DNA of 50,885 nt from an uncultured Oscillospiraceae bacterium (lineage in GTDB: Bacteria > Bacillota > Clostridia > Oscillospirales > Oscillospiraceae), in NCBI GenBank assembly GCA_947629245.1, contig CANRDC010000009.1, positions 1 to 50,885 of the forward strand, read 5' to 3'. A model generated the notes under the pieces. The model ran no database searches and had not been told where the DNA came from. It saw nothing but the letters and a program-made list of their open reading frames with translations. This document shows positions 19,021-35,638 of the stretch, piece by piece (within the stretch, counting starts at the first letter, position 1; each line of letters opens with the position of its first letter). Made by a program: the position numbers and the translations under genes.

Positions 19021-20208
19021 TTACAGCGCCTGTTCCAGCTGATCTCGCACGGCGGCGATGAAGCCATCGGTGTCCGTGACCGTGCCCCGGCCCAGCAGCT
19101 GGGCGATGTCCCCGGTGACCATACCGGCCCGGATGGCGTCCAGAGCGGCGTCCTCCAGCTTCTGGGCGAAGGCGGCCAGGTCCTCCAGAGCGTCCAGCCG
19201 GCCCCGCTTGCGCAGCGCGCCGGTCCAGGCGAACAGGATGGCCATGGGGTCGGTGCTGGTCCGCTCTCCTGCCTGCCGCCGCCGCCAGTGGCGGGTGACG
19301 GTGCCGTGGGCGGCCTCGTACACGGTCCGGCCCGTGGGGGAGATGAGCACGCTCTTCATCAGCGCCAGCGACCCGAAGGCCGCGCCGATCATGTCGCTCA
19401 TCACGTCCCCGTCGTAGTTCTTCAGCGCCCACACGAAGCCCCCCGACGAGCGCATGCAGCGGGCCACCGCGTCGTCGATGAGGGTGTAGAGATACTGTAT
19501 GCCCGCCTTCCGGAAGGCGTCGGCGTACTCCTGGTCGTACACCCGCTGGAAAATGTCCCGGAACCGGGCGTCGTAGGTCTGGCTGATGGTGTCCTTACAG
19601 GAGAACCACAGGTCCTCTCCCCGGTCCAGGGCGCAGGCAAAGCAGCTGCGGGCGAAGGCCTCGATGCTCCTGTCGGTGTTGTGCATGGCCAAAGCCACGC
19701 CGGGGCCCTGGAAGGCGAACACGGTCTTCTCCTCCGTCCCGCTCACCAGGCGCACCGTCTGGCCAGCGTCCGCGGCCAGCTCCACGCCCTTATATACGTC
19801 CCCGTACCCGTGGCGGGCCACGGTGATGGGTTTCGTCCACGTGGGCACCAGGGGCGTGGCCCCCGGCAGCAGGATGGGCGAGCGGAAGATGGTCCCATCC
19901 AGGGCCGAGCGCAGGGTGCCGTTGGGGCTGGGGTACAGCCGGGGCAGGTCGTACTCGACCTTACGCTGGGCGTTGGGGGTGATGGTGGCGCACTTGACGC
20001 CCACCCCCAGACGGTCCACCGCCCTGGCCGCCTCCATGGTGACGGCGTCGTCCGTGTCCCTGCGGCTGGGCAGGCCCAGGTCGTAATACTCCGTTTTCAG
20101 TTCCACGAAGGGCTCCAGCAGCTCCCGCTTCACCATCGCCCACATCAGGCGGGTCATCTCGTCGCCGTCCATCTCCACGATGGGCGTGGTCATTTTGATC
20201 TTATCCAT
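19021..20208 (-). CDS. icd: NADP-type isocitrate dehydrogenase
   Basis: Converts isocitrate to 2-oxoglutarate and CO2. The 395-residue product follows the eukaryotic-like homodimeric (type II) family: PIVEMDGDEMTRLMW at the N-terminus, CATITPNAQRKVEY, SPNGTLRSALDGTIFRSPI with the substrate serine, KDTISQTYD, KNYDGDVMSDMIGAAFGSLALM with the metal aspartates, and EAAHGTVTRHW with STDPMAILFAW, the cofactor loop. Type II enzymes mostly use NADP. The ATG at 20208 has GGGGGAG five bases upstream and overlaps the hydratase stop by 8 bases, so the two are translated together. With citrate synthase across the divergent promoter they form the oxidative branch toward glutamate. Confidence 0.95.
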   Translation of the reverse strand: MDKIKMTTPIVEMDGDEMTRLMWAMVKRELLEPFVELKTEYYDLGLPSRRDTDDAVTMEAARAVDRLGVGVKCATITPNAQRKVEYDLPRLYPSPNGTLRSALDGTIFRSPILLPGATPLVPTWTKPITVARHGYGDVYKGVELAADAGQTVRLVSGTEEKTVFAFQGPGVALAMHNTDRSIEAFARSCFACALDRGEDLWFSCKDTISQTYDARFRDIFQRVYDQEYADAFRKAGIQYLYTLIDDAVARCMRSSGGFVWALKNYDGDVMSDMIGAAFGSLALMKSVLISPTGRTVYEAAHGTVTRHWRRRQAGERTSTDPMAILFAWTGALRKRGRLDALEDLAAFAQKLEDAALDAIRAGMVTGDIAQLLGRGTVTDTDGFIAAVRDQLEQAL

Positions 20209-22219
20209 TGCCGCTCCCCCTATGGGCCCGGTACCAGTTGATGAGGCACCCATCCAGCAGTATCTGCCGCTCCTTTTCCGTGAGCGCGCCCAGGCCCAGC
20301 GTCACGGGCGTGTCCCCGATAAAGCCCTGTACCTGCTCCGCGCTGGCCGCCAGCGACGCGCGGATGCCCGGCACCCGCAGCGTATCCCCCGGCTGCCAGG
20401 AAAAATCTCCGTCGTAGGTGAAGGGGACGATGCCCCAGTTGATGAGGTTGGCCCGATAGCGGCGGGTGGCGTACTCCCTGGCCACGTTGGCCGCGCCCCC
20501 CAGCACCCGCTGGCAGGAGGCGGCCTGCTCCCGTGCCGAGCCGTCCCCAGGCTTGACCGCGTAGATGGCGCTCTGCTTCCCCTCGGCCTGCAGGGCCCGG
20601 CACCGGGGCACGTACTCCGGCGCCCGGCGGCCCAGGGCGAAACCGGCCAGTTTCAAGGGATTGGATCGGTAACTGGAGGTCTCTCCGGAGGGGATCAGCT
20701 CGTCGGTGGTGGTCACCGGGTCCTGGATGACGGCGGCAAAGGTGACGGTCAGGTCCTCGGGCATGGCGGGGATCTCCGGCCAGGGCTGGATATTGGGCCC
20801 GTAGCGCAGCGGCTCGTCGGGCAGGGGGCTGCCGATGCCCCGGTACACCCGGCGCCGGTAGGGCGCGTCGTCGAAGCTGTCGGCTGGCTCCGGCATGTCG
20901 TAATCCATCTCTGTGGCCGGGGTGATGACGCCCCCGTTGGCGGCGGTGGCGGCGATGGACCGGGCGTCCATCAATATCACCTGGGCGCTCTGGCCCTGGG
21001 CGGGCTGGGAGCCCTCCCGGTTGGGGAAGTTGCGGGTGGTGTGGCGCAGGCTCACCGTGTCGTTGGCGGGCACGTCCCCCGCGCCGAAGCAGGGCCCGCA
21101 GAAGCAGGGCTTTACCACGCCGCCGGCGGTGATGATGGTCTCCAGCGCGCCGCTGCGCATGGCCGCCAGCTGCACCGGCATGCTGGCCGGATACACCGAC
21201 AGGCCGAAGTATCCGCTGCCCACGCTTCTGCCCTTCAGGATGGCCGCGGCTTCGGCGATGTTCTCCAACAGGCCCCCGGCGCACCCGGCGATGACGCCCT
21301 GCCCGGCTAGCTTTCCAGCCAGCTGAGACACCGGCACCGCCTTGGATGGATGGTAGGGCAGCGCCGCCATGGGCTCCAGCGCGGACAGGTCCACGGTCAC
21401 CAGAGCGTCGTACAGCGCCCCCTCCGCAGGATCCATCCGCTTATAGTCCCCCAGACGGCCCCGCAGGGCCAGCCAGGCTTCCGTCTTTTCATCTGTCTGC
21501 CAGATACTGGACAAGCAAGCCGTCTCCGTGGTCATCACGTCCAGGCCCATCCGCCAGTCCATGGACAGGTTCTTCACCCCCGGCCCGGCGAACTCCAGCA
21601 CCGCGTTTTTCACCAGCCCCTCGGGGAACACCGCCCCGCACAGAGCCAGGGCCGCGTCGTGGGGACCCACCCCCTGCCGGGGGGAGCCGGTGAGGTACAC
21701 CAGTATCACCCGTGGCGCGGGCAGCTCATAGGTATCGCCCAGCAGCTGCTTGACCAGCTCCGGACCGCCCTCGCCCACGCCCATGGTACCCAGCGCGCCG
21801 TAGCGGGTGTGGCTGTCGGAGCCCAGGAGCATCTTCCCGCACCCGGCCAGCCGCTCCCGTGCGTACTGGTGGATGACCGCCAGGTTCGCAGGCACATACT
21901 CGCCGCCGAACCGCCGGGCGGCGGACAGGCCGAAGACGTGGTCGTCCGCGTTGATGGTGCCGCCCACCGCGCACAGGCTGTTGTGGCAGTTGGTGAGAAC
22001 ATAGGGCAGCTCGAACCTGGTCATGCCCGAGGCCATGGCCGTCTGGATGATGCCCACATAGGTGATGTCGTGGCTGATGAGGCCGTCGAAGCGGATGCGC
22101 TCGCCCCCGTGGGCCGCCAGCACCCCCGCCGCCATGGTCCCGGACCGGTCGGCCTTCTCTGAGGGCGCTGTGGGCGCGCCCGCATGCCACATGACCTTCT
22201 CGCCGCTGAATGTGATCAT
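20201..22219 (-). CDS. Aconitase-family hydratase (probable aconitate hydratase)
   Basis: About 672 residues of the aconitase superfamily, with the three cluster cysteines expected: LTNCHNSLCAVGGTIN near the start, TETACLSS region, and GPCFGAGDVPANDTVSLRHT with FCGPC. Further signatures are LGSDSHTRYGALGTMGVGEGG, NREGSQPAQGQSAQV and a swivel-domain end. It belongs to the shorter branch usually labelled only hydratase (YbhJ-like), but its coupling to icd and position opposite citrate synthase argue for citrate/isocitrate isomerisation. I prefer the ATG at 22219 (AGGTGG five bases upstream). The longer start at 22252 has no ribosome binding site and lies on the expected transcription start of the only good promoter. 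Confidence 0.88.
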   Translation of the reverse strand: MITFSGEKVMWHAGAPTAPSEKADRSGTMAAGVLAAHGGERIRFDGLISHDITYVGIIQTAMASGMTRFELPYVLTNCHNSLCAVGGTINADDHVFGLSAARRFGGEYVPANLAVIHQYARERLAGCGKMLLGSDSHTRYGALGTMGVGEGGPELVKQLLGDTYELPAPRVILVYLTGSPRQGVGPHDAALALCGAVFPEGLVKNAVLEFAGPGVKNLSMDWRMGLDVMTTETACLSSIWQTDEKTEAWLALRGRLGDYKRMDPAEGALYDALVTVDLSALEPMAALPYHPSKAVPVSQLAGKLAGQGVIAGCAGGLLENIAEAAAILKGRSVGSGYFGLSVYPASMPVQLAAMRSGALETIITAGGVVKPCFCGPCFGAGDVPANDTVSLRHTTRNFPNREGSQPAQGQSAQVILMDARSIAATAANGGVITPATEMDYDMPEPADSFDDAPYRRRVYRGIGSPLPDEPLRYGPNIQPWPEIPAMPEDLTVTFAAVIQDPVTTTDELIPSGETSSYRSNPLKLAGFALGRRAPEYVPRCRALQAEGKQSAIYAVKPGDGSAREQAASCQRVLGGAANVAREYATRRYRANLINWGIVPFTYDGDFSWQPGDTLRVPGIRASLAASAEQVQGFIGDTPVTLGLGALTEKERQILLDGCLINWYRAHRGSGNG

Positions 22220-22254
22220 TTCCGCCACCTGCCGTCTCGTTGTCGTTGCCATTT

Positions 22255-22283
22255 ATTATACAGTCTGCACGCAGGATAGTAAA
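22255..22283 (-). promoter_or_regulatory. Candidate promoter of the hydratase-icd operon
   Basis: Minus strand TTTACT (22283-22278), 17 bases, TATAAT (22260-22255). Transcription would begin near 22248, about 30 bases before the ATG at 22219. Confidence 0.5.
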
Positions 22284-22407
22284 GGGCCGTTTCGCCAAAA
22301 ATCACAACAAAAATGTAAAATCCATTGTGATAAGTTGCAAAAATAGCGAGCTCTTCCCAAAATTATCGGGCATATTTCATCAATTTTGAAAGACTCAAAA
22401 AAGAAAC

Positions 22408-22436
22408 TTGCAAAACTATGGCACTGTGTGTATAAT
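22408..22436 (+). promoter_or_regulatory. Promoter of citrate synthase
   Basis: TTGCAA (22408-22413), 17 bases, perfect TATAAT (22431-22436). The start codon is at 22482. The leader contains a tandem ATGATCATC motif (22447-22466). Confidence 0.65.
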
Positions 22437-22481
22437 ATCAAATCATAATGATCATCAATGATCATCGCAAGGAGACACGGC

Positions 22482-23831
22482 ATGAACGGCGACACCTTTG
22501 TGATCGACAAATATATGAACGTCCTGTGTGCGGACGCGGCGGAGCGCTACGCCATCGACCCGGCCTATTTCGCCCGCACCCACCGGGGCCTGCGCAACGA
22601 TGACGGCACCGGCGTGCTGGTGGGCGCCACCCGTATCGGCAGCGTGCTGGGCTACTATATGCAGGACGGGGAACGGGTGCCCATGGATGGGCGGCTTCTG
22701 TACCGGGGCATCTCGGTGGAGGACATCGTCCAGAGCCACTGGGAGGATGGCACCTTCGGCTACGAGGAGGTGGTCTACCTGCTGCTGCTGGGGCGGCTGC
22801 CCAACTGGCGGCAGCTGGAGATGTTCTCCGCCATGCTCTCGGAGGCGCGGCCTCTTCCTCACGGCTTTTTCGACGACATGATATTGAAAAACCCCAGTCC
22901 GGACGTGATGAACGGCCTGGCCCGGAGCGTGCTGGCCCTGTACGCCTACGACCACGACCCCGACGGCCGGTCTGTGGAGAACCTGATGCGCCAGTCGGTG
23001 GGGCTCATCGCCCGGCTGCCGGTGATCGTGGCCCAGACCTACGCCGTCAAGCGGCACGTGTACGAGCAGTCCAGCCTGTACATCCACCACCCCAAGGACG
23101 AGCTGAGCCTGGCGGAGAATTTCCTGCGCATGGCCCGCAAGGATAAGAGCTACACCCCCCTGGAGGCCCGCATTCTGGACCTGATGCTCATTCTCCACGC
23201 CGAGCACGGCGGCGGCAACAACTCCACCTTCGTCTGCCGGGCCATGTCCTCCTCCGGCACGGACACCTACGCCGCCATCGCCGGAGCCATCGGCTCGCTG
23301 AAGGGGCCGCTGCACGGCGGGGCCAACGCCAAGGTGCGCCAGATGCTCTCGGCCATCGGCCAGCGGGTGGACGCGGACAGCTCCGACGACGCCATCCGCG
23401 CCTGTCTGGCGGACGTGCTGGCCGGGCGGCTGGGCGACGGCTCCGGCAAGCTCTACGGCCTGGGCCACGCGGTGTACACCCTGTCCGACCCACGGGCGGT
23501 GGTCATCAAGCGCTACGCCGGGGCCCTGGCCCAGGAGAAGGGCCGCCAGGCGGAGATGGACCTGATGGAGCGCATCGAGCGCATCGGCATCGAGCTGGTG
23601 GCGGAGAAAAAGGGCGCCTGCTGCGCCAACGTGGATTTCTATTCCGGGTTCGTGTACGACATGCTGGGCATCCACCCGGAGCTGTACACCCCCCTGTTCG
23701 CCGTGGCCCGCATCGCGGGCTGGTGCGCCCACCGGATGGAGGAGGTGCTCACCGGCAACCGCATCATGCGCCCGGCCTACCGGGCTGTCAACGAGCCGGG
23801 TGGCTATATCCCTATGCCCCAGCGGCAGTGA
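22482..23831 (+). CDS. gltA: Citrate synthase
   Basis: Condenses acetyl-CoA with oxaloacetate. The 449-residue product has GRLLYRGISVEDIV, the histidine motif LILHAEHGGGNNSTFVCR, the region GSLKGPLHGGANAKV with the second active-site His, GLGHAVYTLSDPRA with the third, and NVDFYSGFVYDMLGIHPELY with the catalytic Asp. RIAGWCAHRMEE follows, the arginine that binds the substrate carboxylate. The N-terminal extension of about 60 residues is normal for this clostridial subgroup of si-type synthases. AAGGAG seven bases upstream fixes the ATG at 22482; an in-frame ATG at 22458 precedes that site. It is divergent from the hydratase-icd pair and has its own terminator. Confidence 0.94.
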   Translation: MNGDTFVIDKYMNVLCADAAERYAIDPAYFARTHRGLRNDDGTGVLVGATRIGSVLGYYMQDGERVPMDGRLLYRGISVEDIVQSHWEDGTFGYEEVVYLLLLGRLPNWRQLEMFSAMLSEARPLPHGFFDDMILKNPSPDVMNGLARSVLALYAYDHDPDGRSVENLMRQSVGLIARLPVIVAQTYAVKRHVYEQSSLYIHHPKDELSLAENFLRMARKDKSYTPLEARILDLMLILHAEHGGGNNSTFVCRAMSSSGTDTYAAIAGAIGSLKGPLHGGANAKVRQMLSAIGQRVDADSSDDAIRACLADVLAGRLGDGSGKLYGLGHAVYTLSDPRAVVIKRYAGALAQEKGRQAEMDLMERIERIGIELVAEKKGACCANVDFYSGFVYDMLGIHPELYTPLFAVARIAGWCAHRMEEVLTGNRIMRPAYRAVNEPGGYIPMPQRQ

Positions 23832-23931: not shown

Positions 23932-26900
23932 CTAATACGCAAAGCTGCCGTCGTATACCTTCACGACCGCGCCGGTGAGGATGACGTTTTCGCCGGTATA
24001 GCGGACGGTCAGGTCCCCGCCGGGGAGGACCACCTTGATATCCCGGTCCCGGTCGCAGAAGCCGTTTTCCACCGCCGCCGCCACCGCCGCGCACGCGCCG
24101 GTGCCGCAGGCCAGAGTGGCGCCGATGCCCCGCTCCCAGACCCGCACCCGCAGGGTAGTGCGGTTCACCACATGCACGAACTCCGCGTTGACCCGCTCCG
24201 GGAACAGGGGCGCGTACTCAAAGGCCGGTCCCAGCTTTTCCAGCTCCAGACGCTCCAGAGCGTCCGTGAACACCACACAGTGTGGATTGCCCACGTTGAC
24301 GCAGTTGATCTGCCAGTCCTCGCCGCCGACGCGGGCGGGATAGCAGATCATCCGCTCGCTGTCCGCCGCCGCGGGGATATCCGCCGAGCGCAGACTGACC
24401 TTTCCCATGTCCACGGACACGGAGCTGACCTTCCCGTCTCGGGTAAAGAGATGGGCTGTCTTGATGCCGCTGGCTGTCTCCACGGTGACGCGCTCGCTGT
24501 GGACAAGGCCCTTGTCGTACAGGTACTTCGCCACGCAGCGGACGCTGTTGCCCGCCATACGGCCCTCGCTGCCGTCCCGGTTGAAGCTGCGCATCTTCAC
24601 GTCCGCTATGTCGGACCTCTCCATCAGCACCAGCCCGTCGCTGCCGATGCCGAAGTGGGCGGGGCAGAGGCTGACGCACAGGGATTCGGGGCTCGTGATG
24701 GCCCCGTTAAAATTCTCCACGAAGATATAGTCATTGCCGCAGCTCTGCATCTTGGTAAAGGCCGCGGTACGGCGCTGTTTTCGCATGGCGTTGATGTCCA
24801 CCAGCTCCGTGTTCTCCTGGCTGAAGCGGCTGGCGATCATGTCTGCCAGGGCGTTTGCGGTGTCCAGAGAGGTGAGGCAGGGGATGCCCAGCTGCATGGC
24901 CTTCCGGTGCAGGGCGATATAATCGCCCATGGTGGCGTCCTTGACCGCCCCGGTGTATACGATATAGCAAAGGCGGCCGCTCTCCATGAGCCGGTGTATC
25001 CGGTCGCTCTCGGTGGCGTTGGGCACTTCTGACACCTCCACGCCCAGCGACGCGATAGCCGCCGCCGTGCCGGGGGTGGCGTAGAGCTTCAGACCCAGCT
25101 CATAAAACTGGCGGGCCAGGGTCAGGACCTCCTGATAGTCCCCGGTCTCCACGCTTAAAAGCACGCCCGCGTCCGTCAGAGTCCGGGGCGGGACCTTGAA
25201 TCCGGCGGCGGTGAGTCCCTTGAACATGGCTTCTGCCAGCGTTGCGCCGATGCCCAGCACCTCGCCGGTGGATTTCATCTCCGGACCCAGGATGGAGTTG
25301 GCGTCGTTGAGCTTCTCAAAGGAGAACACCGGTACCTTGACCGCGAAATAGGGCGGCGCGGGCGCGAGGCCCGGCGCATACCCCAGGTCCTTAAGCTTTG
25401 CTCCCAGCATGATCCGGGATGCCAGATCCACCATGGGCACGCCCGTCACCTTGCTGATATAGGGCACTGTCCGGGACGCCCGAGGGTTCACCTCGATGAC
25501 GTACAGCTCCCCGTCGTAGATGAGATACTGGATGTTCACAAGACCCTTGGTGCCCAGGGCCAGGGCCAGCTTCTCCGAGCAGTCGCAGATCCGCTCCAGC
25601 TGCTGGTCGTTCAGGTTGTAGGGCGGATAGACGGCGATGGAGTCGCCGCTGTGCACGCCCGCCCGCTCGATATGCTCCATGACGCCGGGGATGAGCACCT
25701 GCTCTCCGTCGGAGAGCACGTCCACCTCCAGCTCGATGCCGGGCATGTACTTGTCCACCAGCACCGGGTTTTCGATGCCGCCGGACAAAATGGTCTTCAT
25801 GTACCGCTCAGTCTGGGCCCGGTCCCGTGATATGGTCATGTTCTGTCCGCCGATCACATAGCTGGGCCGCAGCAGCACCGGGTAGCCCAGCTCCTCTGCC
25901 GCGCTGAGGGCCTCTTCCAGTCCGTTCACGCCCCGGCCCCTGGGCCTGCTGATGCCGAAGCGCTCCAAAAGCGCGTCGAAGCGGGCCCGGTCCTCCGCCA
26001 TGTCGATGCTGTCGGCGGAGGTGCCCAGGATGGGGATGCCCAGCTTATCCAGAAACTGGGTCAGCTTGATGGCCGTCTGGCCGCCGAAGGCTACTACCAC
26101 TCCGATGGGCTTTTCCACCCGGATGATGTTCAGCACGTCCTCCCGGCACAGGGGCTCAAAATACAGCCGGTCGGCGGTGTCATAGTCGGTGGACACCGTC
26201 TCCGGGTTGTTGTTGACGATGACCACGTCGTAGCCCATCTCCCGCAATGTCCAGACGCAGTGGACAGAGCTGTAGTCGAATTCGATGCCCTGGCCGATGC
26301 GGATGGGACCGGAGCCCAGCACCATCACCACCGGTCTGCCGCTGCGGGGGAAGGACTCCGCCTCGCACTCGGCGTCAAAGCCGGAATAGAAATAGGGCGT
26401 CTCCGCGTCAAACTCCGCGCCGCAGGTGTCCACCATCTTGTAGCGCATGGGCATGCCTGGGGTCTTTTCCGCGCCGCTCAGACGGCACAGGGCCTCATCC
26501 GTATAGCCCAGGAGCTTGCCCTCCCGGTAGTTATCCGCCGTTAGGCCGTCCCGGACCAGCTCCCGCTCGAATCGGGCGAGATTTGCGATCTTATACAAAA
26601 ACCACTTGTCGATCTTGGTGATATCGTGGATCTCCTCCACGCTCACGCCGGTCTTTAGGGCCTCGAAAACGGTGAACAGCCGCCGGTCGTTCTGCTCCGC
26701 CAGCCGCTCCCGGACCGGGGCGGCGGACAGGGGAGGGGCGTTCAGGGTGTCCAGGGATATCTCCGCGCCCCGGACGGCTTTCATGAGGGCCATCTCAAAG
26801 CCGGAGGCGATGGCCATGACCTCCCCGGTGGCCTTCATCTGGGTGCCCAGCTGGCGGCTGGAGCCGGAGAACTTGTCAAAGGGCCACTTGGGCAGCTTGA

Positions 26901-27963
26901 CCACCACATAGTCCAGCGCGGGCTCAAAGCAGGCGCAGGTCTTGCCGGTGACCTCGTTTTTTACCTCGTCCAGGGTGTAGCCCAGAGCGATCTTGCAGCT
27001 CAGCTTGGCGATGGGATAGCCCGTGGCCTTGCTGGCCAGGGCCGAGGACCGGGAGACACGGGGGTTGACCTCGATGACGGCGTATTCAAAGCTGTCCGGG
27101 TTCAAAGCGAATTGGCAGTTGCAGCCGCCCTCGATGCCGATGGCCGTGATGATGTCCAGGGCCGCCGTGCGCAGCATCTGGTATTCCTTGTCGCTGAGGG
27201 TCAGGGCGGGCGCCACCACGATGGAGTCGCCGGTGTGGATGCCTACCGGGTCCAGGTTCTCCATGGAGCAGACGGCGATCACGTTGCCCGCTCCGTCCCG
27301 CATGGTCTCGAACTCGATCTCCTTCCAGCCGGAGATGCACCGCTCCACCAGGACCTGACTGATAGGGGACAGATCCAGGCCGCTTCTGGCGATGAGCCGC
27401 AGTTCCGCCTCGTCCTTGGCGATACCGCCGCCGGTGCCGCCCAGGGTATAGGCCGGGCGGACGATCACCGGATAGCCGATCTCCCCGGCGATGGCCAGAG
27501 CGCCCTCCAGATCCGTGGCCGTGGCGGAGGGGATCACCGGCTGGCCGATGGCCTTCAGCGTCTCGCGGAACATCTCCCGGTCCTCGGCCTTCTCGATGGC
27601 CTCGATGGACGAGCCCAGAAGACGGACGCCGTATTTTTCCAACGTCCCGTCCCGGCTCAGCTGCATGGCGATGGTCAGGCCGGTCTGGCCGCCCAGACCC
27701 GCCAAAAGTCCGTCCGGCCGCTCCTTGGCGATGATACGGCGGACCGTGGCGGCGGTGAGGGGCTCCAGATAGATCTCATCGGCCAGATCCTTGTCGGTCA
27801 TGATGGTGGCCGGGTTGGAGTTGACCAGCACGGTGTTGATCCCCTCCTGCCGCAGGACCCGGCAGGCCTGTGCGCCGGCGTAGTCGAACTCCGCGGCCTG
27901 GCCGATCACGATAGGGCCGGAGCCGATGACCAATACTTTCCGTATGCCGCTGTCCTTAGGCAT
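23932..27963 (-). CDS. carB: Carbamoyl-phosphate synthase large chain fused to a diaminopimelate epimerase domain
   Basis: One uninterrupted 1343-codon frame. Residues 1 to about 1065 are a complete CarB: two ATP-grasp halves (GSGPIVIGQAAEFDYAG near 14 and GSGPIRIGQGIEFDYSS near 550, with VNPRVSRSSALASKATG and VNPRASRTVPYISKVTG) and a C-terminal MGS-like allosteric domain. Residues 1072-1343 are a complete DapF-type domain starting MQSCGNDYIF, with GNPHCVVF and the second catalytic cysteine in ERGIGATLACGTGA (Cys1286). The first catalytic cysteine position, normally M-C-G-N, reads M-A-G-N (Ala1137). CarB makes carbamoyl phosphate for arginine and pyrimidines; the role of the altered epimerase domain is unknown. 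Start overlaps carA by 8 bases; GGGAGGG precedes the ATG. Confidence 0.95.
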   Translation of the reverse strand: MPKDSGIRKVLVIGSGPIVIGQAAEFDYAGAQACRVLRQEGINTVLVNSNPATIMTDKDLADEIYLEPLTAATVRRIIAKERPDGLLAGLGGQTGLTIAMQLSRDGTLEKYGVRLLGSSIEAIEKAEDREMFRETLKAIGQPVIPSATATDLEGALAIAGEIGYPVIVRPAYTLGGTGGGIAKDEAELRLIARSGLDLSPISQVLVERCISGWKEIEFETMRDGAGNVIAVCSMENLDPVGIHTGDSIVVAPALTLSDKEYQMLRTAALDIITAIGIEGGCNCQFALNPDSFEYAVIEVNPRVSRSSALASKATGYPIAKLSCKIALGYTLDEVKNEVTGKTCACFEPALDYVVVKLPKWPFDKFSGSSRQLGTQMKATGEVMAIASGFEMALMKAVRGAEISLDTLNAPPLSAAPVRERLAEQNDRRLFTVFEALKTGVSVEEIHDITKIDKWFLYKIANLARFERELVRDGLTADNYREGKLLGYTDEALCRLSGAEKTPGMPMRYKMVDTCGAEFDAETPYFYSGFDAECEAESFPRSGRPVVMVLGSGPIRIGQGIEFDYSSVHCVWTLREMGYDVVIVNNNPETVSTDYDTADRLYFEPLCREDVLNIIRVEKPIGVVVAFGGQTAIKLTQFLDKLGIPILGTSADSIDMAEDRARFDALLERFGISRPRGRGVNGLEEALSAAEELGYPVLLRPSYVIGGQNMTISRDRAQTERYMKTILSGGIENPVLVDKYMPGIELEVDVLSDGEQVLIPGVMEHIERAGVHSGDSIAVYPPYNLNDQQLERICDCSEKLALALGTKGLVNIQYLIYDGELYVIEVNPRASRTVPYISKVTGVPMVDLASRIMLGAKLKDLGYAPGLAPAPPYFAVKVPVFSFEKLNDANSILGPEMKSTGEVLGIGATLAEAMFKGLTAAGFKVPPRTLTDAGVLLSVETGDYQEVLTLARQFYELGLKLYATPGTAAAIASLGVEVSEVPNATESDRIHRLMESGRLCYIVYTGAVKDATMGDYIALHRKAMQLGIPCLTSLDTANALADMIASRFSQENTELVDINAMRKQRRTAAFTKMQSCGNDYIFVENFNGAITSPESLCVSLCPAHFGIGSDGLVLMERSDIADVKMRSFNRDGSEGRMAGNSVRCVAKYLYDKGLVHSERVTVETASGIKTAHLFTRDGKVSSVSVDMGKVSLRSADIPAAADSERMICYPARVGGEDWQINCVNVGNPHCVVFTDALERLELEKLGPAFEYAPLFPERVNAEFVHVVNRTTLRVRVWERGIGATLACGTGACAAVAAAVENGFCDRDRDIKVVLPGGDLTVRYTGENVILTGAVVKVYDGSFAY

Positions 27964-29029
27964 GCCCGTTCCCTCCCATCATCATGGCCAGAAACCGGTC
28001 GAAGAGAAATTCCGTATCGTGGGGCCCGCCGCTGGCCTCCGGGTGGAACTGGACGGTGAAGCAGTTGAGGTCCGGGTAATCCAGGCCCTCGCAGCTGCCG
28101 TCGTTGGCGTTGACGTAGCTGAGCTCCGCCAGAGCCTCCATGCTCTCGCTGCGCACGGCGTAGCCATGGTTCTGGCTGGTGATGTAGCAGCGGCCGGTGG
28201 CGAGGCAGCGGACGGGCTGGTTGGCGCCCCGGTGGCCGTACTTGAGTTTGACCGTCTCGCCGCCCGCGGCCAGGGCCGTGAGCTGATGCCCCAGGCAGAT
28301 GCCGAAGATGGGGAGAGCGCCCAGGAGCTTTTTGAGCTGTTCGACGCAGTAGACGTTCTCCGCCGGATCGCCGGGGCCGTTGGACAGCATGAGCCCGTCC
28401 GGATGAAGCGCCAGCACATCCTCCGCCGGAGTATCATAGGGCAGCACCGTCACCCGGCAGCCCCGCTTCGTGAGATTGCGGACGATGTTCCCCTTGGCGC
28501 CGTAGTCCAGCAGGGCCACGGAGAATCTCTCCTGCCCCTGGGCGGGGATAACGGAGGCGGCGCGGCAGCTGGCGGCCGCCACCGCGTTTTTGACCGCGTA
28601 AGCGGCGATGTCGCTCCGGTCGGCCGGGACCGCCGAGCAGATCTTGGCGTTCATGACCCCCTGGGTCCGGATCATTTTCGCCACGGCACGGGTGTCGACG
28701 CCGCAGATGCCGGGCACGCCCCGGTCCTTCAAAAACCGGTCCAGCTCGTACTGGCAGCGGAAATTGGAGGGCTGCTCGCACAGCTCCCGGACCACATAGC
28801 CCCTGGCGAGGCACTGGCCCTCGAAATCCGACTCGATGACGCCGTAGTTGCCGATGAGGGGAAAGGTCTGCAGGATGATCTGCCCGGCATAGCTGGGGTC
28901 GGTCAGTGTCTCCAGATAGCCCTCCATGCCGGTGGTGAACACCAGCTCTCCCAGGCCGTCGCCGTCCGCGCCGATGCGTCGGCCCTCGAACACGGCGCCG
29001 TTATTCAGTACAAGATAGGCTTTTCCCAT
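27956..29029 (-). CDS. carA: Carbamoyl-phosphate synthase small (glutaminase) chain
   Basis: CarA hydrolyses glutamine and channels ammonia to CarB. The 357-residue product has the N-terminal CPSase_sm domain (VFEGRRIGADGDGLGELVFT, TTGMEGYLETLTDPSYAGQI) and the class I glutaminase domain with nucleophile elbow FGICLGHQLTALAAGG, SQNHGYAV and the His-Glu pair QFHPEASGGP. Length is normal. It lies 18 bases after argF and overlaps carB by 8 bases, placing carAB at the end of the arginine operon rather than in a pyrimidine operon. AGGGA lies shortly before the ATG. This carAB may serve both pathways if no second copy exists elsewhere. Confidence 0.97.
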   Translation of the reverse strand: MGKAYLVLNNGAVFEGRRIGADGDGLGELVFTTGMEGYLETLTDPSYAGQIILQTFPLIGNYGVIESDFEGQCLARGYVVRELCEQPSNFRCQYELDRFLKDRGVPGICGVDTRAVAKMIRTQGVMNAKICSAVPADRSDIAAYAVKNAVAAASCRAASVIPAQGQERFSVALLDYGAKGNIVRNLTKRGCRVTVLPYDTPAEDVLALHPDGLMLSNGPGDPAENVYCVEQLKKLLGALPIFGICLGHQLTALAAGGETVKLKYGHRGANQPVRCLATGRCYITSQNHGYAVRSESMEALAELSYVNANDGSCEGLDYPDLNCFTVQFHPEASGGPHDTEFLFDRFLAMMMGGNGHA

Positions 29030-29047: not shown

Positions 29048-30052
29048 TTATACAAGGGTGGCCGCCATGACGGCCTTGATGGTGTGCATCCTGTTCTCGG
29101 CCTCGTCGAAGACGATGGACTGGGGCCCCTCGAACACACCGTCAGAGACCTCCATGCAGTCCAGGCCGAATTTCTCGTGGATATCCCCGCCGATCTGCGT
29201 CTGCAGGTCGTGGAAGGCGGGCAGGCAGTGCATGAACCGGCACTGGGACCCCGCCTGGGCCATGAGGGCCTCGTCGACCCGGTAGGGGCGCAGGTCCTGT
29301 ATCCGCTGGGCCCAGACCTCCTCCGGCTCGCCCATGGACACCCACACGTCGGTATACAGCACGTCCGCGTCCTTCACGGCGGCCATGGGGTCCGTCTCAA
29401 AGGCCAGCTCCGCGCCGGTTTGGGCGGCGATGGCGCGGCATTGGGCCACAAGCGCTCCGTCCGGGAAATAGGCCTCCGGGGCGCAGGCGGTAAAGCGCAT
29501 ACCCATCTTGGCGCAGCCCACCATGAGGGAGTTGCCCATATTGTAACGGGCGTCCCCCAGATAGACGAGCTTCCGCCCGGCCAGGGAGCCGAAGTGCTCC
29601 CGGATGGTGAGAAAGTCAGCCAGGATCTGGGTGGGATGGGACTCGTTGGTCAGGCCGTTCCAGACGGGCACGCCAGCATAGGCGGCCAGCGCCTCCACCC
29701 GCTCCTGGCCGAAGCCCCGGTACTCGATCCCGTCAAAGATGCGGCCCAGGACCCGTGCCGTGTCGGCGATGCTCTCCTTTTTCCCAAGCTGAGAGGACTT
29801 CGGGTCCAGATACACGGCCGTCATCCCCAGATCGGCGGCGGCCACCTCAAAGCTGCACCGGGTGCGGGTGCTGGTCTTCTCAAAGACCAGCGCTATATTT
29901 TTGCCTGGGCAGAGGCGGTGGGCCACGCCCTTTTTCTTCTCGTCCTTCAGCCGGGCCGAAAGATCCAGCAGCGCGGCGATCTCCGCGGGGCTGCAGTCCA
30001 GCAGCTTCAGAAAGCTGCGGCCCTTGAGCTCGATATTTCCGTTCAGCTTCAT
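29048..30052 (-). CDS. argF: Ornithine carbamoyltransferase
   Basis: Transfers the carbamoyl group from carbamoyl phosphate to ornithine to form citrulline. In 334 residues are visible: the carbamoyl-phosphate loop [15 protein letters not shown] (STRTR), [14 protein letters not shown] with the HPTQ motif, [23 protein letters not shown] and the ornithine-binding HCLP in [10 protein letters not shown]. Length matches anabolic enzymes. AGGAGGAG precedes the ATG. The gene lies directly before carA, which makes its substrate, and 13 bases after argD. Its position in a biosynthetic cluster argues against a catabolic (arcB) role. Confidence 0.97.
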
Positions 30053-30065
30053 CCCTGTCTCCTCC

Positions 30066-31232
30066 TCAGACCAACTCTTCCTTTATGCGTGACACCGCCT
30101 GCATCAGCAGCTCCTCCGGGATGTTCAGCGCTGGCAGGAGCCGTATTTTGTCCTTGGCTGTGAGGCACAGTACGCCCTTGCCGATCAGCGCCCGGACAAC
30201 GTCCCCTGCCGCCTTTTCGGCGGGTTTTATGCCGATCATCAGGCCCAGTCCGGTGACAGCCTCCACCCCCGGCGCGCCCTCCAGGGCCTGACGGACCAGG
30301 TCCCCCTTGCGGGCCACCGACCCAAGAAACGCCTCGTCCAGCCGCCCGATGACGCTCAGCGCGCCCGCGCAGCAGACCGGGTTGCCCCCAAAGGTGGAGC
30401 CGTGGTCCCCGCTGCCCAGGACATATTCCACTTTTTCCCCCAGCAGCGCCGCCCCCAGGGGCAGACCGCCGCCCAGGCCCTTGGCCGTGGAGACCACGTC
30501 CGGCGTCACGCCGTAGTGCATATAGGAATAGAGCTTGCCCGTGCGGCCGTTGCCGGTCTGGACCTCGTCCACCATGAACACGATGTCCTCCTGCTCGCAG
30601 AAGGCGGCCACGGCCTGGACATATCCCTTATCCAGCACGTGTACGCCGCCCTCGCCCTGCACGCACTCGATGAGCACGCCCGCCGCCTTGTTTTGCAGCG
30701 CCGCGGCCTTCAAAGCTTCCATGTCGTTGGCGGGTACATGCACAAAGCCGGGGGTCAGGGGTTGGAAGAGCGCGTGGAAATGGTCCTGGCCGGTGGCGGC
30801 CAGGGTGGTCAGGGTCCGGCCGTGGAAGCTGTTTTCCAGGGTGACGATGGTATAGTGGTCCGGGCCCTTCTTCTCGGCGGCGTACTTCCGGGCGGCCTTC
30901 ACGGCGCATTCGTTGGCCTCGGCGCCGGAATTGCCGAAAAAGACCTTCTTCATCCCGGTCCTCTCGCACAGAAGCTGGGCAAGCCGCGCGCAGGGCTCGG
31001 TGTAGTAGAGGTTGGACATGTGCTGCACCTTGTCCAGCTGCTCCGTGACCGCCGCCCTCCAGGCGTCGTCCGCCACGCCGAAGGCGGTCACGCCGATGCC
31101 GCTGCCCAGGTCGATATACTCCCGGCCCGTCTCGTCATAGACAAGAGAGCCCTTCCCGCGGACGATCTCCACCGGGAACCGGGCGTACGTATTGGCTACA
31201 TATTTTTTGTCGATCGCTTTTAAATCAGGCAT
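30066..31232 (-). CDS. argD: Acetylornithine aminotransferase
   Basis: A class III PLP aminotransferase that converts N-acetylglutamate semialdehyde to N-acetylornithine with glutamate as donor. Features in 388 residues: [33 protein letters not shown] (phosphate loop), [32 protein letters not shown] with the aspartate that contacts the ring nitrogen, and the PLP lysine in [25 protein letters not shown] follows. Its ATG overlaps the argB stop by 8 bases (ATGCCTGA), so it is translationally coupled. It may also act in lysine synthesis as succinyl-DAP aminotransferase, as ArgD does in some bacteria. Confidence 0.96.
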
Positions 31233-32106
31233 CTTCTTCCTCTCCTTTTACGACCATGGTCCCGGCGCCCTCGTCGGTCAAAAGCTCCATCAGGATGGAG
31301 TGAGGCACGCGCCCGTCCATGATGATAACGCTCTCCACGCCCCGGTAGATGGCGTCGATGCAGCAGTCCACCTTGGGGATCATCCCCCCGGTGATCACGT
31401 CCTGCCGGAACAGCTCCGTGGCCTGCCGGATCGTAAGGCGGTCCACCAGCGTCTCGGGCCGGTCCTTGTCCAGCAGGACACCGGCGATGTCTGTCATCAG
31501 GATCAGCCGGTGAGCGTGCAGGGCCCCGGCGATGCAGGCCGCCGCCGTGTCCCCGTTGATGTTGTAGACGCCGCCTGCCTCGTCACGGCCCACAGTGGAG
31601 ACGACAGGGATATAGCCCTTTTCCAGAAGATCCATGACCGGTCGGATGTCCACCCCTTCGATGCTGCCCACATAGCCCAGCTGGGGATTTTTCATTTTGG
31701 CCCGGATGAGGCCGCCGTCCACACCGGACAGGCCCATGGCCCGGCCGCCCTTGACCTCCAGCAGATTCACGAGGGATTTGTTGACCTTACCCGCCAGGAC
31801 CATCTGTACGATGTCCATGGTCTCCTGGTCCGTGACCCGCAGGCCGTTCACGAACTGGGGTTCCTTCCCGAGCCTGGCCATCATCTCGCTGATCTCCGGA
31901 CCGCCGCCGTGGACCAGCACCACCTTTACGCCCACCAGGCTCAGAAGGACGATATCCTCCATCACCTGCTGCTTGAGCTGTTCGTTCACCATGGCGTTCC
32001 CGCCGTATTTGACCACGACGATCTGGCCGTTATACTGTTTGATATAGGGAAGGGCCTGGGTGAGCACCTGGGCCCGCTGGGCATTTGAAAACTGCAGTTG
32101 TTCCAT
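31225..32106 (-). CDS. argB: Acetylglutamate kinase
   Basis: Phosphorylates N-acetylglutamate, usually the feedback-controlled step of arginine synthesis in organisms with cyclic acetyl recycling. The 293-residue product has the amino acid kinase fold: VVVKYGGNAM, VLVHGGGPEIS, EPQFVNGLRVTD, YNINGDTAAACIAGAL, LMTDIAGVL and GGMIPKVDCCIDAI. A basic/aromatic N-terminal helix (FSNAQRAQVLTQALPYI) matches the arginine-sensitive hexameric type, in which that helix links dimers. GGAG lies six bases before the ATG at 32106; ATG codons at 32118 and 32121 overlap or precede that site and were not used. It starts 17 bases after argJ. Confidence 0.95.
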   Translation of the reverse strand: MEQLQFSNAQRAQVLTQALPYIKQYNGQIVVVKYGGNAMVNEQLKQQVMEDIVLLSLVGVKVVLVHGGGPEISEMMARLGKEPQFVNGLRVTDQETMDIVQMVLAGKVNKSLVNLLEVKGGRAMGLSGVDGGLIRAKMKNPQLGYVGSIEGVDIRPVMDLLEKGYIPVVSTVGRDEAGGVYNINGDTAAACIAGALHAHRLILMTDIAGVLLDKDRPETLVDRLTIRQATELFRQDVITGGMIPKVDCCIDAIYRGVESVIIMDGRVPHSILMELLTDEGAGTMVVKGEEEDA

Positions 32107-32123
32107 CGGCTTCTCCATCATTA

Positions 32124-33338
32124 TCAGGTGCGGTAATCTCCGTTGATCTTCACATAGTCGTAGGTCAGGTCGCAGCCCCAGGCGGTGGCGGAGGCCGCTC
32201 CGTCTCCCAGAGAGACCAGGATCTCGATCTCGTCCTCCAGCAGGACCTTCTTGGCCTCCTCCTCGGAAAAGTCCACTCCGGCCCCGTCCCGGCAGACCTC
32301 CACGCAGCCCGCCGCGGAGCGGAAGCTTACGCCCACCTTGTTCACATCCAGGTCCGCGCCGCTGTAGCCCAGCGCGCACAGGACCCGGCCCCAGTTGGCG
32401 TCCGCGCCGAACATGGCCGCCTTCACAAGGCTGGAGCAGATCACGCTCTTGGCGGCGGTCCGGGCCGCCGCCAGATCCCTGGCCCCGGTCACGGAGCACT
32501 CCAGAAGCCTGGTGGCCCCCTCGCCGTCCCCGGCGATGGCCCGGCACAGAGCCACGGTCACACTGTTCAGGGCCTCCATGAAGGCGGTGAATCCGTCGCC
32601 CTCGGCCGTGATCTCGGCGTTGCCCGCAAGACCGTTTGCCAGGACGCAGACCATGTCGTTGGTGGAGGTGTCCCCGTCGATACTGATCATGTTGAATGAA
32701 TTGGCCACGTCGCCGGACAGGGCCTTTTGCAGCATGGCGGGGGAGATTGCCGCGTCGGTGGTGAGAAAGACCAGCATGGTGGCCATGTTGGGATGGATCA
32801 TGCCGCTGCCCTTGGCGATGCCCCCCAGCCGACAGGTCCTGCCATCCAGCTCAAACTCTACCGCCGCCTGCTTGGGATGGGTGTCGGTGGTCATGATGGC
32901 CTCGCAGGCGTCGGTGCTGCCGTCCGCAGACAGGTCCGCCGCCAGAGCGCCGATCCGGTCCCGGACCGGGTCCAGGCTCAGCCTCTGGCCGATGACGCCG
33001 GTGGAGGCCACGATCACGTCCTCCGCCGGGATATCCAGCGTCCGCGCCGCCAGCTCCGCCATGCCACGGGCGATCTGCGGCCCGTCGGCGTTGCAGGTGT
33101 TGGCGTTGCCGCTGTTGCAGATCACGGCCTGGGCCATGCCGTCGGCCAGGTGTTCTCTGGTGACGGTCAGGGGCGCGCCCTTGACCAGATTGGTGGTGTA
33201 TACAGCCGCGGCGGCGGCCCGTTTTTCGCTCACGATCAGGGCCAGATCCTTCTTGCTGCGGTTGTGCCGGATGCCGCAGTGGATGCCCGCGGCCCTGAAT
33301 CCTCTGGCGGCGCAGACGCCGCCGGAAATACTCTTCAT
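32124..33338 (-). CDS. argJ: Bifunctional glutamate N-acetyltransferase / ornithine acetyltransferase
   Basis: ArgJ moves the acetyl group from N-acetylornithine to glutamate, giving the cyclic route; many homologues also use acetyl-CoA. The 404-residue precursor cleaves itself at an Ala-Thr bond, and the site is visible as KGSGMIHPNMATML (Thr as N-terminal nucleophile of the beta chain). Further signatures are ICNSGNANTCN and VASTGVIGQRL in the alpha part, SIDGDTSTNDMV and GANWGRVLCALGYSGA in the beta part. With argC, argB and argD it completes the cyclic pathway; no argA or argE is needed or seen. Ten bases separate it from argC. Confidence 0.96.
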   Translation of the reverse strand: MKSISGGVCAARGFRAAGIHCGIRHNRSKKDLALIVSEKRAAAAAVYTTNLVKGAPLTVTREHLADGMAQAVICNSGNANTCNADGPQIARGMAELAARTLDIPAEDVIVASTGVIGQRLSLDPVRDRIGALAADLSADGSTDACEAIMTTDTHPKQAAVEFELDGRTCRLGGIAKGSGMIHPNMATMLVFLTTDAAISPAMLQKALSGDVANSFNMISIDGDTSTNDMVCVLANGLAGNAEITAEGDGFTAFMEALNSVTVALCRAIAGDGEGATRLLECSVTGARDLAAARTAAKSVICSSLVKAAMFGADANWGRVLCALGYSGADLDVNKVGVSFRSAAGCVEVCRDGAGVDFSEEEAKKVLLEDEIEILVSLGDGAASATAWGCDLTYDYVKINGDYRT

Positions 33339-33348: not shown

Positions 33349-34263
33349 CTACAGATTCAACCCCGTGGTCTCGTCCAGACCCAGGAGGATATTCATGTTC
33401 TGAATGGCGGCGCCGGAGGCGCCCTTGCCAAGATTGTCGAAGGTGGAGATGAGCAGGATGCGCGCATCGTTCCCCGCTACGGTCACGCTCATGCCGTCGC
33501 TGCCGCTCAGGGCGTTGGCGGCCAGCATCCCATCGGGGCAGGGCTCATAGCGGACCACCGGTCCCGTGTACACGTCCCGGTACAGGGCCTTCACGTCCTC
33601 TATCCCGCCCCTGAGCTGGGAGGCAAAGACCGGCACCGTCACCTGCATGCCGCTGGTAAAATCCGCCACCACCGGGCAGAACGCCGGGGCCCTGTCGAGC
33701 CCGCACACGGCGGCCATCTCCGGAAGATGCTTGTGGGCCTGGGTAAGGCCGTACTGCCGGGGGCTGTCATAGGCCGCCGGGCGGTCCGCCGCCTCGTACT
33801 CGCCGATCATCTTCTTTCCGCCGCCGGAGTAGCCCGTCAGGGAGAAGCATGTCAGCTCCGCGTCCTTTGCCAGCAGCCCCACCCGGACCAGCGGCTCCAC
33901 CAGCGAGATAAAGCCGCTGGCGTGGCAGCCGGGATTGGCGATGCGGCGGCTGGCGCGGATGCGCTCCCGCCGGGACCCCAGCTCCGGGAAGCCGTACTCC
34001 CAGCCGGGAGCCGTCCGGTGGGCGGTGGAGGTGTCGATCACCGCCGTATCCCCGTGGACCAGGGCCGCCGCCTCGCTGGCGGCGTCGTCCGGCAGACAGA
34101 AAAAGGCGATGTCCGCTTCATTGATGGCCTCCTCCCGGGCCCGAGGGTCCTTGCGCCGGTCCTCGGGCAGGGCGATCAGCTCCAGCTCCGGCCGGGAGGT
34201 CAGCCGCTCCCGGATGCGCAGGCCGGTGGTACCGGCGCTGCCGTCGATAAATATTTTCGTCAT
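33349..34263 (-). CDS. argC: N-acetyl-gamma-glutamyl-phosphate reductase, short (type 2) form
   Basis: Reduces acetylglutamyl phosphate to the semialdehyde using NADPH. At 304 residues it belongs to the shorter type 2 family. Seen: IDGSAGTTGLRIRERL (nucleotide-binding), DIAFFCLPDDAASE, VIDTSTAHRT, the catalytic cysteine in IANPGCHASGFI, and LTGYSGGGKKMI. KHLPEMAAVCGL and a C-terminal STFDNLGKGASGAAIQNMN complete it. AAGGAG ten bases upstream sets the ATG at 34263; that ribosome binding site lies inside the last codons of the arginine-rich leader ORF, so initiation may depend on its translation. The frame stays open far upstream, but that sequence shows no homology and overlaps argG. Confidence 0.95.
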   Translation of the reverse strand: MTKIFIDGSAGTTGLRIRERLTSRPELELIALPEDRRKDPRAREEAINEADIAFFCLPDDAASEAAALVHGDTAVIDTSTAHRTAPGWEYGFPELGSRRERIRASRRIANPGCHASGFISLVEPLVRVGLLAKDAELTCFSLTGYSGGGKKMIGEYEAADRPAAYDSPRQYGLTQAHKHLPEMAAVCGLDRAPAFCPVVADFTSGMQVTVPVFASQLRGGIEDVKALYRDVYTGPVVRYEPCPDGMLAANALSGSDGMSVTVAGNDARILLISTFDNLGKGASGAAIQNMNILLGLDETTGLNL

Positions 34264-34267
34264 GCTT

Positions 34268-34345
34268 TCAAAAACTCCTTGATCTACGCGATCTGCGCCT
34301 CCACCGAGGCCAGAGAGGCGCCTCCTCGGAAACGCGCTTTTCCAT
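34268..34345 (-). CDS. Arginine-rich 25-codon leader ORF before argC
   Basis: On the minus strand GGAGG lies five bases before ATG. The peptide is MEKRVSEEAPLW followed by PRWRRRSRRSRSF. Eight of 25 codons are Arg, seven of them in the last 12, and five different Arg codons are used (CGC, CGG, CGT, AGA, AGG). The stop is four bases before the argC start, and the argC ribosome binding site is inside its last codons. Three GAGGCGC/GCGCCTC segments (34348-34354, 34315-34321, 34295-34301) allow mutually exclusive stems. This is the layout of a leader peptide that senses charged tRNA-Arg, but chance in GC-rich DNA is possible and no U-tailed terminator follows. Confidence 0.45.
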   Translation of the reverse strand: MEKRVSEEAPLWPRWRRRSRRSRSF

Positions 34346-34372
34346 ACGCGCCTCCGTCTTTTACGCAGAATT

Positions 34373-34400
34373 CCTGCACGGGCCCCAGAGCCCGTGCAGG
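34373..34400 (-). terminator. Strong hairpin between argG and the argC leader
   Basis: CCTGCACGGGC and GCCCGTGCAGG form an 11-bp stem with a 6-base loop, 20 bases after the argG stop. The downstream minus-strand bases are AATTCTG, a poor U tract, so it may only reduce readthrough or protect the argG mRNA end. Confidence 0.5.
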
Positions 34401-34420
34401 ATCTGAATCTTGAATCCCTT

Positions 34421-35638
34421 TTATTCCTTCCCGTCCACCAGCGCCTGGACCTTGATAGGCAGACCGAAGAGGTTGATGAAGCCCTGGGCGTCCTTCTGGT
34501 CGTAATCGCTCTCGCCGAAGGTGGCAATCTTCTCGGAATACAGGCTGTAGGGGCTCCAGACCCCGGCGTTGATCATGTTGCCCTTATAGAGCTTCAGCCG
34601 CACCTTGCCGGTGACCCGCTCCTGGGTCTTGTCCACAAAGGCGCTGAGGGCCTCCCGCAGGGGTGTGAACCACTGGCCGTTGTACACCAGCTCCGCGAAG
34701 GTGATGGAAAGCCGCTGCTTCTCATGGGCGGTCATCTTGTCCAGACACACGCTCTCCAGCACCGAGTGTGCCTTGTAGAGGATCGCGCCGCCCGGCGTCT
34801 CGTATACGCCCCGGCACTTCATGCCCACCAGCCGGTTCTCCACGATGTCCAAAAGGCCGATGCCGTTGGCTCCGCCCAGCTCGTTGAGCTTGAGGATGAT
34901 GTCCTTGGCGCTCAGCTTCTCGCCGTTCAACGCCACGGGCACGCCCTGTTCAAAGTCCAGGGTTATGTAGGTGGGCTTATCCGGGGCCTGGAGGGGGCTC
35001 ACGCCCATCTCCAGAAAGCCGGGCTTTTCATACTGGGGCTCGTTGCCGGTGTCCTCCAGGTCCAGACCCTCGTGGCTCAGGTGCCACAGGTTCTTGTCCT
35101 TGGAATAGTTGGTCTCCCGGTTGATGCGCAGGGGCACGTTATGGGCCTCGGCGTAGTCTATCTCCTCCTCCCGGCTTTTCAGGGACCACTCCCGCCACGG
35201 GGCGATGATGGGCATGTTGGGGGCGAAGTGCCTGATGGCAAGCTCGAAGCGGACCTGGTCGTTGCCCTTGCCGGTGCAGCCGTGGACGATGGCGTCCGCG
35301 CCCTCCTTCAGCGCCACCTCCACCAGGCCCTTGGCGATGCAGGGCCGGGCGTGGCTGGTGCCCAGCAGATATTCCTCGTACACCGCCCCGGCCTTCATGG
35401 TGGGGATGATGTAATCGTTCACATATTCCTCCGTCAGGTCCAGCACGTACAGCTTGGACGCGCCGGTGGCCAGGGCCTTTTCCTCCAGCCCCTCCAGCTC
35501 GTCCGCCTGGCCCACGTTCCCGGCCACGGCGATGACCTCGCAGTTATTATAGTTCTCCTTCAGCCAGGGGATGATGATGGACGTGTCCAGCCCCCCGGAA
35601 TAGGCAAGCACTACCTTTTTGATGTCTTGCTTGTTCAT
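34421..35638 (-). CDS. argG: Argininosuccinate synthase
   Basis: Joins citrulline and aspartate with ATP. The 405-residue product has the N-type PP-loop [15 protein letters not shown] at the N-terminus, [43 protein letters not shown] and the C-terminal tetramer region GEFxx-like [16 protein letters not shown]. Length and motifs are canonical. It is the first gene of the arginine segment and has its own consensus promoter with ArgR-like boxes. argH, which would finish the pathway, is not in the window. The start ATG follows AGGAG by seven bases. Transcription probably continues past a hairpin into argC. Confidence 0.97.

Follow-up and report, generated by a model that had tools for sequence, protein, structure and literature searches.

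The fold of the diaminopimelate (DAP) epimerase DapF is known in other work, and some carbamoyl phosphate synthetases (CPSases) are joined to an enzyme fold that lacks its chemistry. The 2,4-diaminobutyrate racemase PddB, which has the DapF fold, keeps catalysis and has lost the distal DAP contacts: in its model N64, N157, N190 and R209 are all replaced, and N11, G74, N75, G218 and S219 are kept (PMC8225329). In Escherichia coli, DapF is a working epimerase that also regulates a separate protein, RppH, independently of its catalytic cysteines (PMC4227774). Fungal pyrimidine CPS II can carry an inactive dihydroorotase (DHO) domain, whose active form belongs to the CPSase's own pathway (PMC6022934). 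Here we describe carB::dapF, a gene on the minus strand of a 50,885-nt stretch from an uncultured Oscillospiraceae bacterium (assembly GCA_947629245.1, contig CANRDC010000009.1; the whole stretch is called the window). In its product the large CPSase subunit, CarB, runs into a DapF domain without the first catalytic cysteine (hereafter Cys-less, as opposed to Cys-intact). This tail is the reverse of PddB, in that the first cysteine is lost and the distal contacts are retained. It recalls the RppH case as a DapF fold that may regulate a partner without its chemistry, although here the two are fused and the partner is another one, and it recalls fungal CPS II in architecture, although the added domain differs and DAP belongs to lysine and cell-wall synthesis. 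We place the fusion among metabolic enzymes with a pseudoenzyme domain and see no new class in it. From comparative data we give just under an even chance to the following reading: an arginine-operon CPSase with a pseudo-epimerase tail that binds DAP or a closely similar amino acid and thereby regulates the CPSase, or at the least makes it more stable.

Architecture and distribution of the fusion

The gene is a single open frame of 1343 codons, read from ATG to TAG (27963 to 23932, minus strand; 1343 aa). A preliminary description of this DNA had the coordinates right and left the strand unstated. Residues 1-1046 (24826..27963, minus strand, as are all positions given for the gene) comprise two synthetase halves, an oligomerisation domain and an MGS-like regulatory domain (residues 946-1031, 24871..25128; PF02142, 42.7 bits). 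They match CarB over its full length (NF003671, 1419.7 bits, residues 1-1046; TIGR01369, 1383.6 bits against a curated cut-off of 1027, residues 2-1041), and residues 1-1040 align with 1-1051 of E. coli CarB (1bxr); the predicted product is thus the large subunit of a glutamine-dependent CPSase. After a short junction (residues 1047-1067, 24763..24825), the DapF domain (residues 1068-1341, 23941..24762) scores 267.7 bits with TIGR00652 against a curated equivalog cut-off of 114.65, so that the profile matches agree with the full-length CarB and full-length DapF proposed beforehand. AlphaFold2 returned a confident DapF fold for the domain (predicted local distance difference test, pLDDT, 95.4; predicted template modelling score, pTM, 0.92), with template modelling (TM) scores of 0.90 to 9mro and 0.91 to 3ejx, both DAP epimerases with bound DAP analogues. 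For the C-terminal 800 aa the pTM was 0.86, a figure that does not establish packing of the tail on CarB.

Of the two catalytic cysteines of DapF, Cys73 (Haemophilus influenzae numbering, assigned by motif) is replaced by Ala1137 (24553..24555, in EGRMAGNSVR) and Cys217 is retained as Cys1286 (24106..24108, in ATLACGTGACA). Both residues, and Met1072 just past the junction, lie in the translation where they were first reported. Compared by eye with the PROSITE active-site signature N-x-(DN)-(GS)-(SENGFT)-x(4)-C-(GI)-N-(GA)-x-R (cited in PMC8225329), NRDGSEGRMAGNSVR has A for C and S for G/A. All eight DAP contacts (N11, N64, N75, N157, N190, E208, R209 and S/T219) are present in the window's tail. 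With DapF (TIGR00652, PF01678) it therefore shares the fold, these contacts and the second catalytic cysteine, and it differs in the alanine, in its fusion to CarB and in coming from a genome that has another DapF. Naming it DapF by score alone would assign an activity that is very probably absent. A separate DapF translated from an internal start found no support: 42 of the 174 fused relatives have Leu in place of Met1072, which leaves no conserved internal start, and no ribosome-binding-like stretch was seen upstream by eye.

The 174 fused DapF domains gathered count some genomes twice (121 from sampled genomes and the window, 53 from named contigs), and thinning to below 85% mutual identity left 143. 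The counts leave out duplicate loci (L001, L002, L004, L023, L032 and L076), a fused piece of L020 that the contig end cuts off, and domains shorter than 200 aa; L denotes a locus, G a genome and C a contig in this analysis, G000 being the window's genome. PF01678 was present in 176 of 200 family genomes, among which there were at least 40 fused genes from at least 39 genomes besides the window's, and the fusion occurred in at least 80 of an order sample of 297 genomes. Because in-frame fusions, mostly of 1315-1430 aa, recur in many separate assemblies, we ruled out an assembly or sequencing error at the junction, the loss of a stop or frameshift that had been named as the way in which the fusion might prove false. 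In place of the first cysteine, 108 of the 143 thinned domains have A, G, S, F or Y; among standalone-labelled DapF domains in the alignment the cysteine is present in 58 of 59, the exception (L112) running off its contig and grouping with the fused domains. Tabulation of the M-x-G-N position, proposed at the outset, thus upheld the loss of the cysteine as real and replaced a single-genome rarity with a widespread architecture, a minority of which has both cysteines.

Sources of the fused clade are titled Oscillospiraceae, Ruminococcus and Clostridia, and include Ruminococcus sp. FC2018 (L108) and Mobilibacterium timonense (L124, with Tyr at the first cysteine position); the tail of L262 has Ala there. 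Two fused genes apiece were found in G011, G103, G113, G129 and G178, both of them Cys-less in G129 and G178. Gly and Ser replace the two catalytic cysteines in the tails of L056 (G166) and L060 (G098), which are nevertheless full-length. A search of the open-access literature, with subscription papers and protein databases outside its range, found no description of a CarB-DapF fusion among the matches listed.

Retention of the tail was judged from a CarB-only search of 61 family genomes, since the fused rows of the trees below were picked for being fused. There were 21 full-length matches of at least 63% identity, of which 20 were fused, the window included (15 Cys-less, 1 with the cysteine and 4 without a reading); no full-length match at 61% identity or less was fused. 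The remaining one (L243, in G010) is a CarB that ends exactly at the junction.

Cysteine loss and other sources of meso-DAP

Loss of the first cysteine was associated with another source of meso-DAP. Across 120 genomes with a fused gene, those with the cysteine lost numbered 90 with another DapF or the bypass enzyme Ddh and 3 without, compared with 13 and 14, respectively, for those with the cysteine kept (Fisher p 1.4e-8, a value that ignores relatedness). Put the other way, 14 of the 17 genomes without either alternative keep the cysteine. Another DapF means here any further PF01678 or own-profile match (of the 72 Cys-less genomes counted as having one, 71 were confirmed to contain a non-fused frame), the PF01678 search was applied to all 44 genomes marked as without one, and Ddh was called by TIGR01921 above its cut-off. 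The 90 genomes divide into 71 with a non-fused DapF, in 69 of which both cysteines were read (the motif was unmatched at the second cysteine in G306 and at the first in G139), and 19 with Ddh only, including G129, where the further DapF match proved to be a second fused gene, also Cys-less. A stricter rule, that the cysteine is kept if and only if no other DapF exists, proved too simple and was rejected: 21 of 94 Cys-less rows have no other DapF match, 18 of these 21 having Ddh. In CgDapF, almost all activity is lost when either cysteine is changed to Ala (C83A, C221A) (PMC5296763). Given that 90 of 93 Cys-less genomes have a separate DapF or Ddh and that most genomes without either retain the cysteine, the Cys-less tail very probably does not serve the cell as its epimerase.

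In a tree of DapF domains (FastTree, 198 rows, cysteine column masked), the 143 fused rows formed one group (support 90, not starred), which also took in the contig-cut L034 and L112 and sat among two-Cys standalone DapFs. The best tree has nine changes between Cys and non-Cys among the fused rows and one 89-row subtree (support 100, starred) without the cysteine. A CarB tree of 100 rows placed 81 fused CarBs and the unfused L243, on the Cys-intact side, in one 82-row clade (support 100, starred), with seven such changes and a Cys-less subclade of 38 rows. None of the 19 unfused CarBs included fell in that subclade, a result that gives no count of losses, as the fused rows had been chosen as fused. 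The trees fit a single fusion with an intact, two-Cys ancestor.

Gene neighbourhoods suggest the same direction of change. Of 49 Cys-intact loci, 11 have dapL within 1.5 kb downstream, as against 3 of 110 Cys-less loci, and at all three of the latter (L065, L067 and L068) a standalone two-Cys dapF intervenes; these loci, and those counted for argF below, were not thinned (L071 and L093, for example, are one genome), and short flanks make the counts lower bounds. The dapL of L108 was called by TIGR03542 (491.3 bits over 364.7) and the others by similarity to it. DapL makes the substrate of DapF. Because dapL adjoins the Cys-intact fusions more often than the Cys-less ones, the former look like the older state. 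These fusions (for example L108, L041 and L043) share with the window's gene the fusion itself, the clade and the short junction, and differ in having both cysteines, in their neighbours, and in that no further DapF was found in 23 of 27 genomes. Cys-intact and Cys-less fusions together make up a natural series in which a bifunctional enzyme, probably a working one, gives way to a pseudoenzyme tail; both states are represented by many lineages, and the purpose of a dead domain can be tested in them.

At L065, L067, L068 and L020, carB with a Cys-less tail is followed directly by a separate two-Cys dapF and then dapL, so that pseudo and working copies stand in tandem. A carB-dapF-dapL neighbourhood also occurs outside the fusion clade: at L005, L006, L009 and L019, an unfused CarB of another type ends beside a standalone dapF and dapL.

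Pocket conservation and competing explanations

The distal carboxylate of DAP is held by N64, N157, N190 and R209 and its distal amino group by E208 (in CgDapF, both amino groups), whereas the reactive end is held by N11, G74, N75, G218 and S219 (PMC5296763, PMC8225329). Alanine at the CgDapF residues matching N11, N64, N75, N157, N190, E208, R209 or T219 nearly abolishes activity (PMC5296763). Among the 108 thinned Cys-less domains, N157, N190, E208, R209 and G218 are kept in every one, N64 in 107, C217 in 106, G74 in 105, and N75 and T219 in 104 each (with Ser at T219 in the other four); N11 is kept in 78 and G76 in 8. The alignment shows that the predicted pocket for the distal, L-configured end of DAP is retained, which alone is no proof of ligand binding. 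The median ratio of nonsynonymous to synonymous substitution rates (dN/dS) was 0.105 for the tail and 0.072 for CarB in Cys-less pairs (22 of 31 computable), compared with 0.068 and 0.051 in Cys-intact pairs (13 of 17 computable). By these estimates the Cys-less tail is under purifying selection, and the earlier judgement that the rest of the domain is selected holds, both on this ratio and on the conserved columns.

The preliminary description had also suggested that the domain might racemise nothing and bind DAP as a sensor. Comparative data favour that idea: loss of the first cysteine tracks another source of meso-DAP, the distal residues are near-invariant and N11 drifts. On this reading, CarB acquired a functional DapF in a single fusion event, as far as the trees show; in cells with a further source of meso-DAP the first catalytic cysteine then disappeared, an association seen directly in the genomes; and the tail would no longer epimerise, as the genome association and the published Cys-to-Ala mutants suggest. 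With the distal-end pocket kept at the level of sequence, the tail may still bind DAP, or an amino acid much like it, and move from open to closed as DapF does; this movement would pass to the adjoining MGS domain or to the oligomer, tuning or stabilising the CPSase in step with the supply of DAP and lysine. DapF closes upon its ligand (PMC5296763) and a dead DapF can regulate a partner, which makes a ligand-gated contact with the MGS domain or the oligomer a plain candidate mechanism. A more specific form, which we hold tentatively and at clearly less than an even chance, is that a retired DAP epimerase has become an allosteric module that senses DAP and sets the rate of carbamoyl phosphate synthesis for arginine, descended from a bifunctional CarB-DapF whose intact descendants survive. 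If the tail is a DAP sensor, it would tie arginine synthesis directly to peptidoglycan and lysine precursors in many bacteria that have been little studied; if it is an allosteric module, the status of cell-wall and lysine precursors would control arginine synthesis in many clostridia.

However, several observations weigh against a DAP-binding, regulatory tail. N11 is D, A or S in 30 of the 108 Cys-less domains. Of the 61 columns at least 97% conserved in Cys-intact domains, the 11 pocket columns (without Cys73) average 0.964 in Cys-less domains and the 49 others 0.945; the pocket is kept as well as the framework and not clearly better, so constraints of fold or dimer could explain its conservation. 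The association with meso-DAP sources ignores relatedness, an independent-pairs test has two to four pairs and cannot reach significance, and 13 of the 27 Cys-intact genomes likewise have an alternative source. No other DapF or Ddh was found in four genomes with a Cys-less tail, G420 (99% complete), G121 (71%), G081 (92%) and G041 (99%, outside the 120-genome table, which includes the other three). L243, within the fused clade, is a CarB without a tail, and partial-query matches in the CarB-only search comprised one fused CarB (G038) and the unfused frames G022, G074 and G089, which match at 64% over residues 1-535 only and were left off the tree. The window's second DapF, described below, has V at N157, so that its role as DAP epimerase is likely but unproven.

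The main rival, unlikely yet the most serious, is that the tail is a structural pseudo-domain without an important ligand, kept because it makes CarB more stable or binds the CarAB oligomer into one; the inactive dihydroorotase domain of fungal pyrimidine CPSase has been proposed to act in such a way. Purifying selection and retention of the tail (20 of 21) fit this explanation equally, as does a pocket kept not clearly better than the framework. Fusion of fungal CPS II to active or inactive DHO is an architectural precedent (PMC6022934), DapFs are dimers (PMC5296763), and the C73A/C217A form of DapF, though catalytically dead, can still bind RppH and activate it (PMC4227774), so that the fold can act by contact alone. 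However, N64, N157, N190, R209 and E208 are among the most invariant columns of the tail, though relatives alter the first four (PddB; N157 also in the type of the window's second DapF), and L243 ends exactly at the junction, which argues that CarB can do without the tail there.

We consider it improbable that the tail performs a different chemistry, with Cys1286 as sole base in a one-base reaction (elimination or proton exchange) on a DAP-like substrate. A Cys-to-Thr change accompanies dehydratase activity in proline-racemase relatives, the fold search also listed 3-hydroxyproline dehydratases, far below the DapFs, and the Cys217 position is the one kept in 106 of the 108 domains. Yet L056 and L060, with Ser at Cys217 too, retain the tail; N11, the holder of the reactive amino group, drifts; and the first cysteine has been replaced by any of A, G, S, F and Y, a variety not expected of a new catalytic residue.

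Quite improbable, too, is a passenger, a relic hard to shed because it is fused to CarB and now slowly decaying. The tail's dN/dS is higher in Cys-less than in Cys-intact pairs and exceeds that of CarB, and the tail has been lost at least once, on the Cys-intact side (L243), all of which speak for it; but a stop codon would remove the tail, and 20 of 21 full-length CarBs of at least 63% identity keep it, with dN/dS far below 1 and a conserved pocket. Continued DAP epimerase activity of the Ala variant, in which water or a different residue would supply the missing base, is very improbable in the face of the CgDapF mutants, of the other meso-DAP source in 90 of 93 Cys-less genomes and of the drift at both the neighbouring G76 and the reactive-end N11; the four genomes without an alternative favour it, with dapB over cut-off in the three tested (G420, G121 and G081), but lysA is below cut-off in these three, so their need for meso-DAP by the DapF route is unsure.

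The arginine operon and the second DapF

carB::dapF is the last gene of a minus-strand run of argG, argC, argJ, argB, argD, argF and carA. Reading upstream from the fusion, carA, the small CPSase subunit (27956..29029; TIGR01368, 424.8 bits), overlaps carB by 8 nt and is preceded by argF, ornithine carbamoyltransferase (29048..30052; TIGR00658, 409.1 bits), argD (30066..31232; TIGR00707, 425.8 bits), a frame holding argB in its residues 177-409 (31225..32547; TIGR00761, 258.4 bits, cut-off 151.3), argJ (32124..33338; TIGR00120, 464.1 bits), a frame holding argC in its residues 90-384 (33349..34527; TIGR01851, 316.3 bits, cut-off 229.85) and argG, argininosuccinate synthase (34421..35638; TIGR00032, 463.3 bits), all on the minus strand. 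ArgF consumes carbamoyl phosphate. Among the 80 fused loci whose flank measures 1200 nt or more, 66 have carA no more than 400 nt upstream, and argF lies upstream of 20 of 50 Cys-less versus 0 of 21 Cys-intact loci (2300 nt flank; p 3e-4, ignoring relatedness and duplicates), which fits a CPSase dedicated to arginine at the Cys-less loci. Apart from the fusion, the window's genome has one full-length carB without a DapF part (G000:C46), and C117 and C58 each give a partial match.

A stand-alone DapF with both cysteines, which the preliminary description had suggested looking for, does exist in the window's genome (87% complete): it lies at G000:C37:16929-17768 and is the only two-Cys DapF found there, with no match to Ddh in the same genome. 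N64, N190, E208 and R209 are present in it. DapFs of its type were found in 11 of 24 other genomes searched. Most members of the type (L263-L274 and G000:C37) carry an insertion at the GNPH loop, and the residue at the Asn157 position is N, D, S, R or V (a gap in L269). The sole dapB match of the window's genome (G000:C76:12742-13146) is partial and below cut-off (103 vs 122 bits).

Elsewhere on the same contig, lysA, encoding diaminopimelate decarboxylase (8968-10263 of the window, minus strand; TIGR01048, 423.9 bits), lies about 14 kb from the fusion. Positions 19021-23831, beside the arginine operon, encode a set of enzymes leading from citrate to oxoglutarate: an NADP isocitrate dehydrogenase, a hydratase of the aconitase family (NF008503) and a citrate synthase, the gene for the last being on the opposite strand and convergent with carB::dapF.

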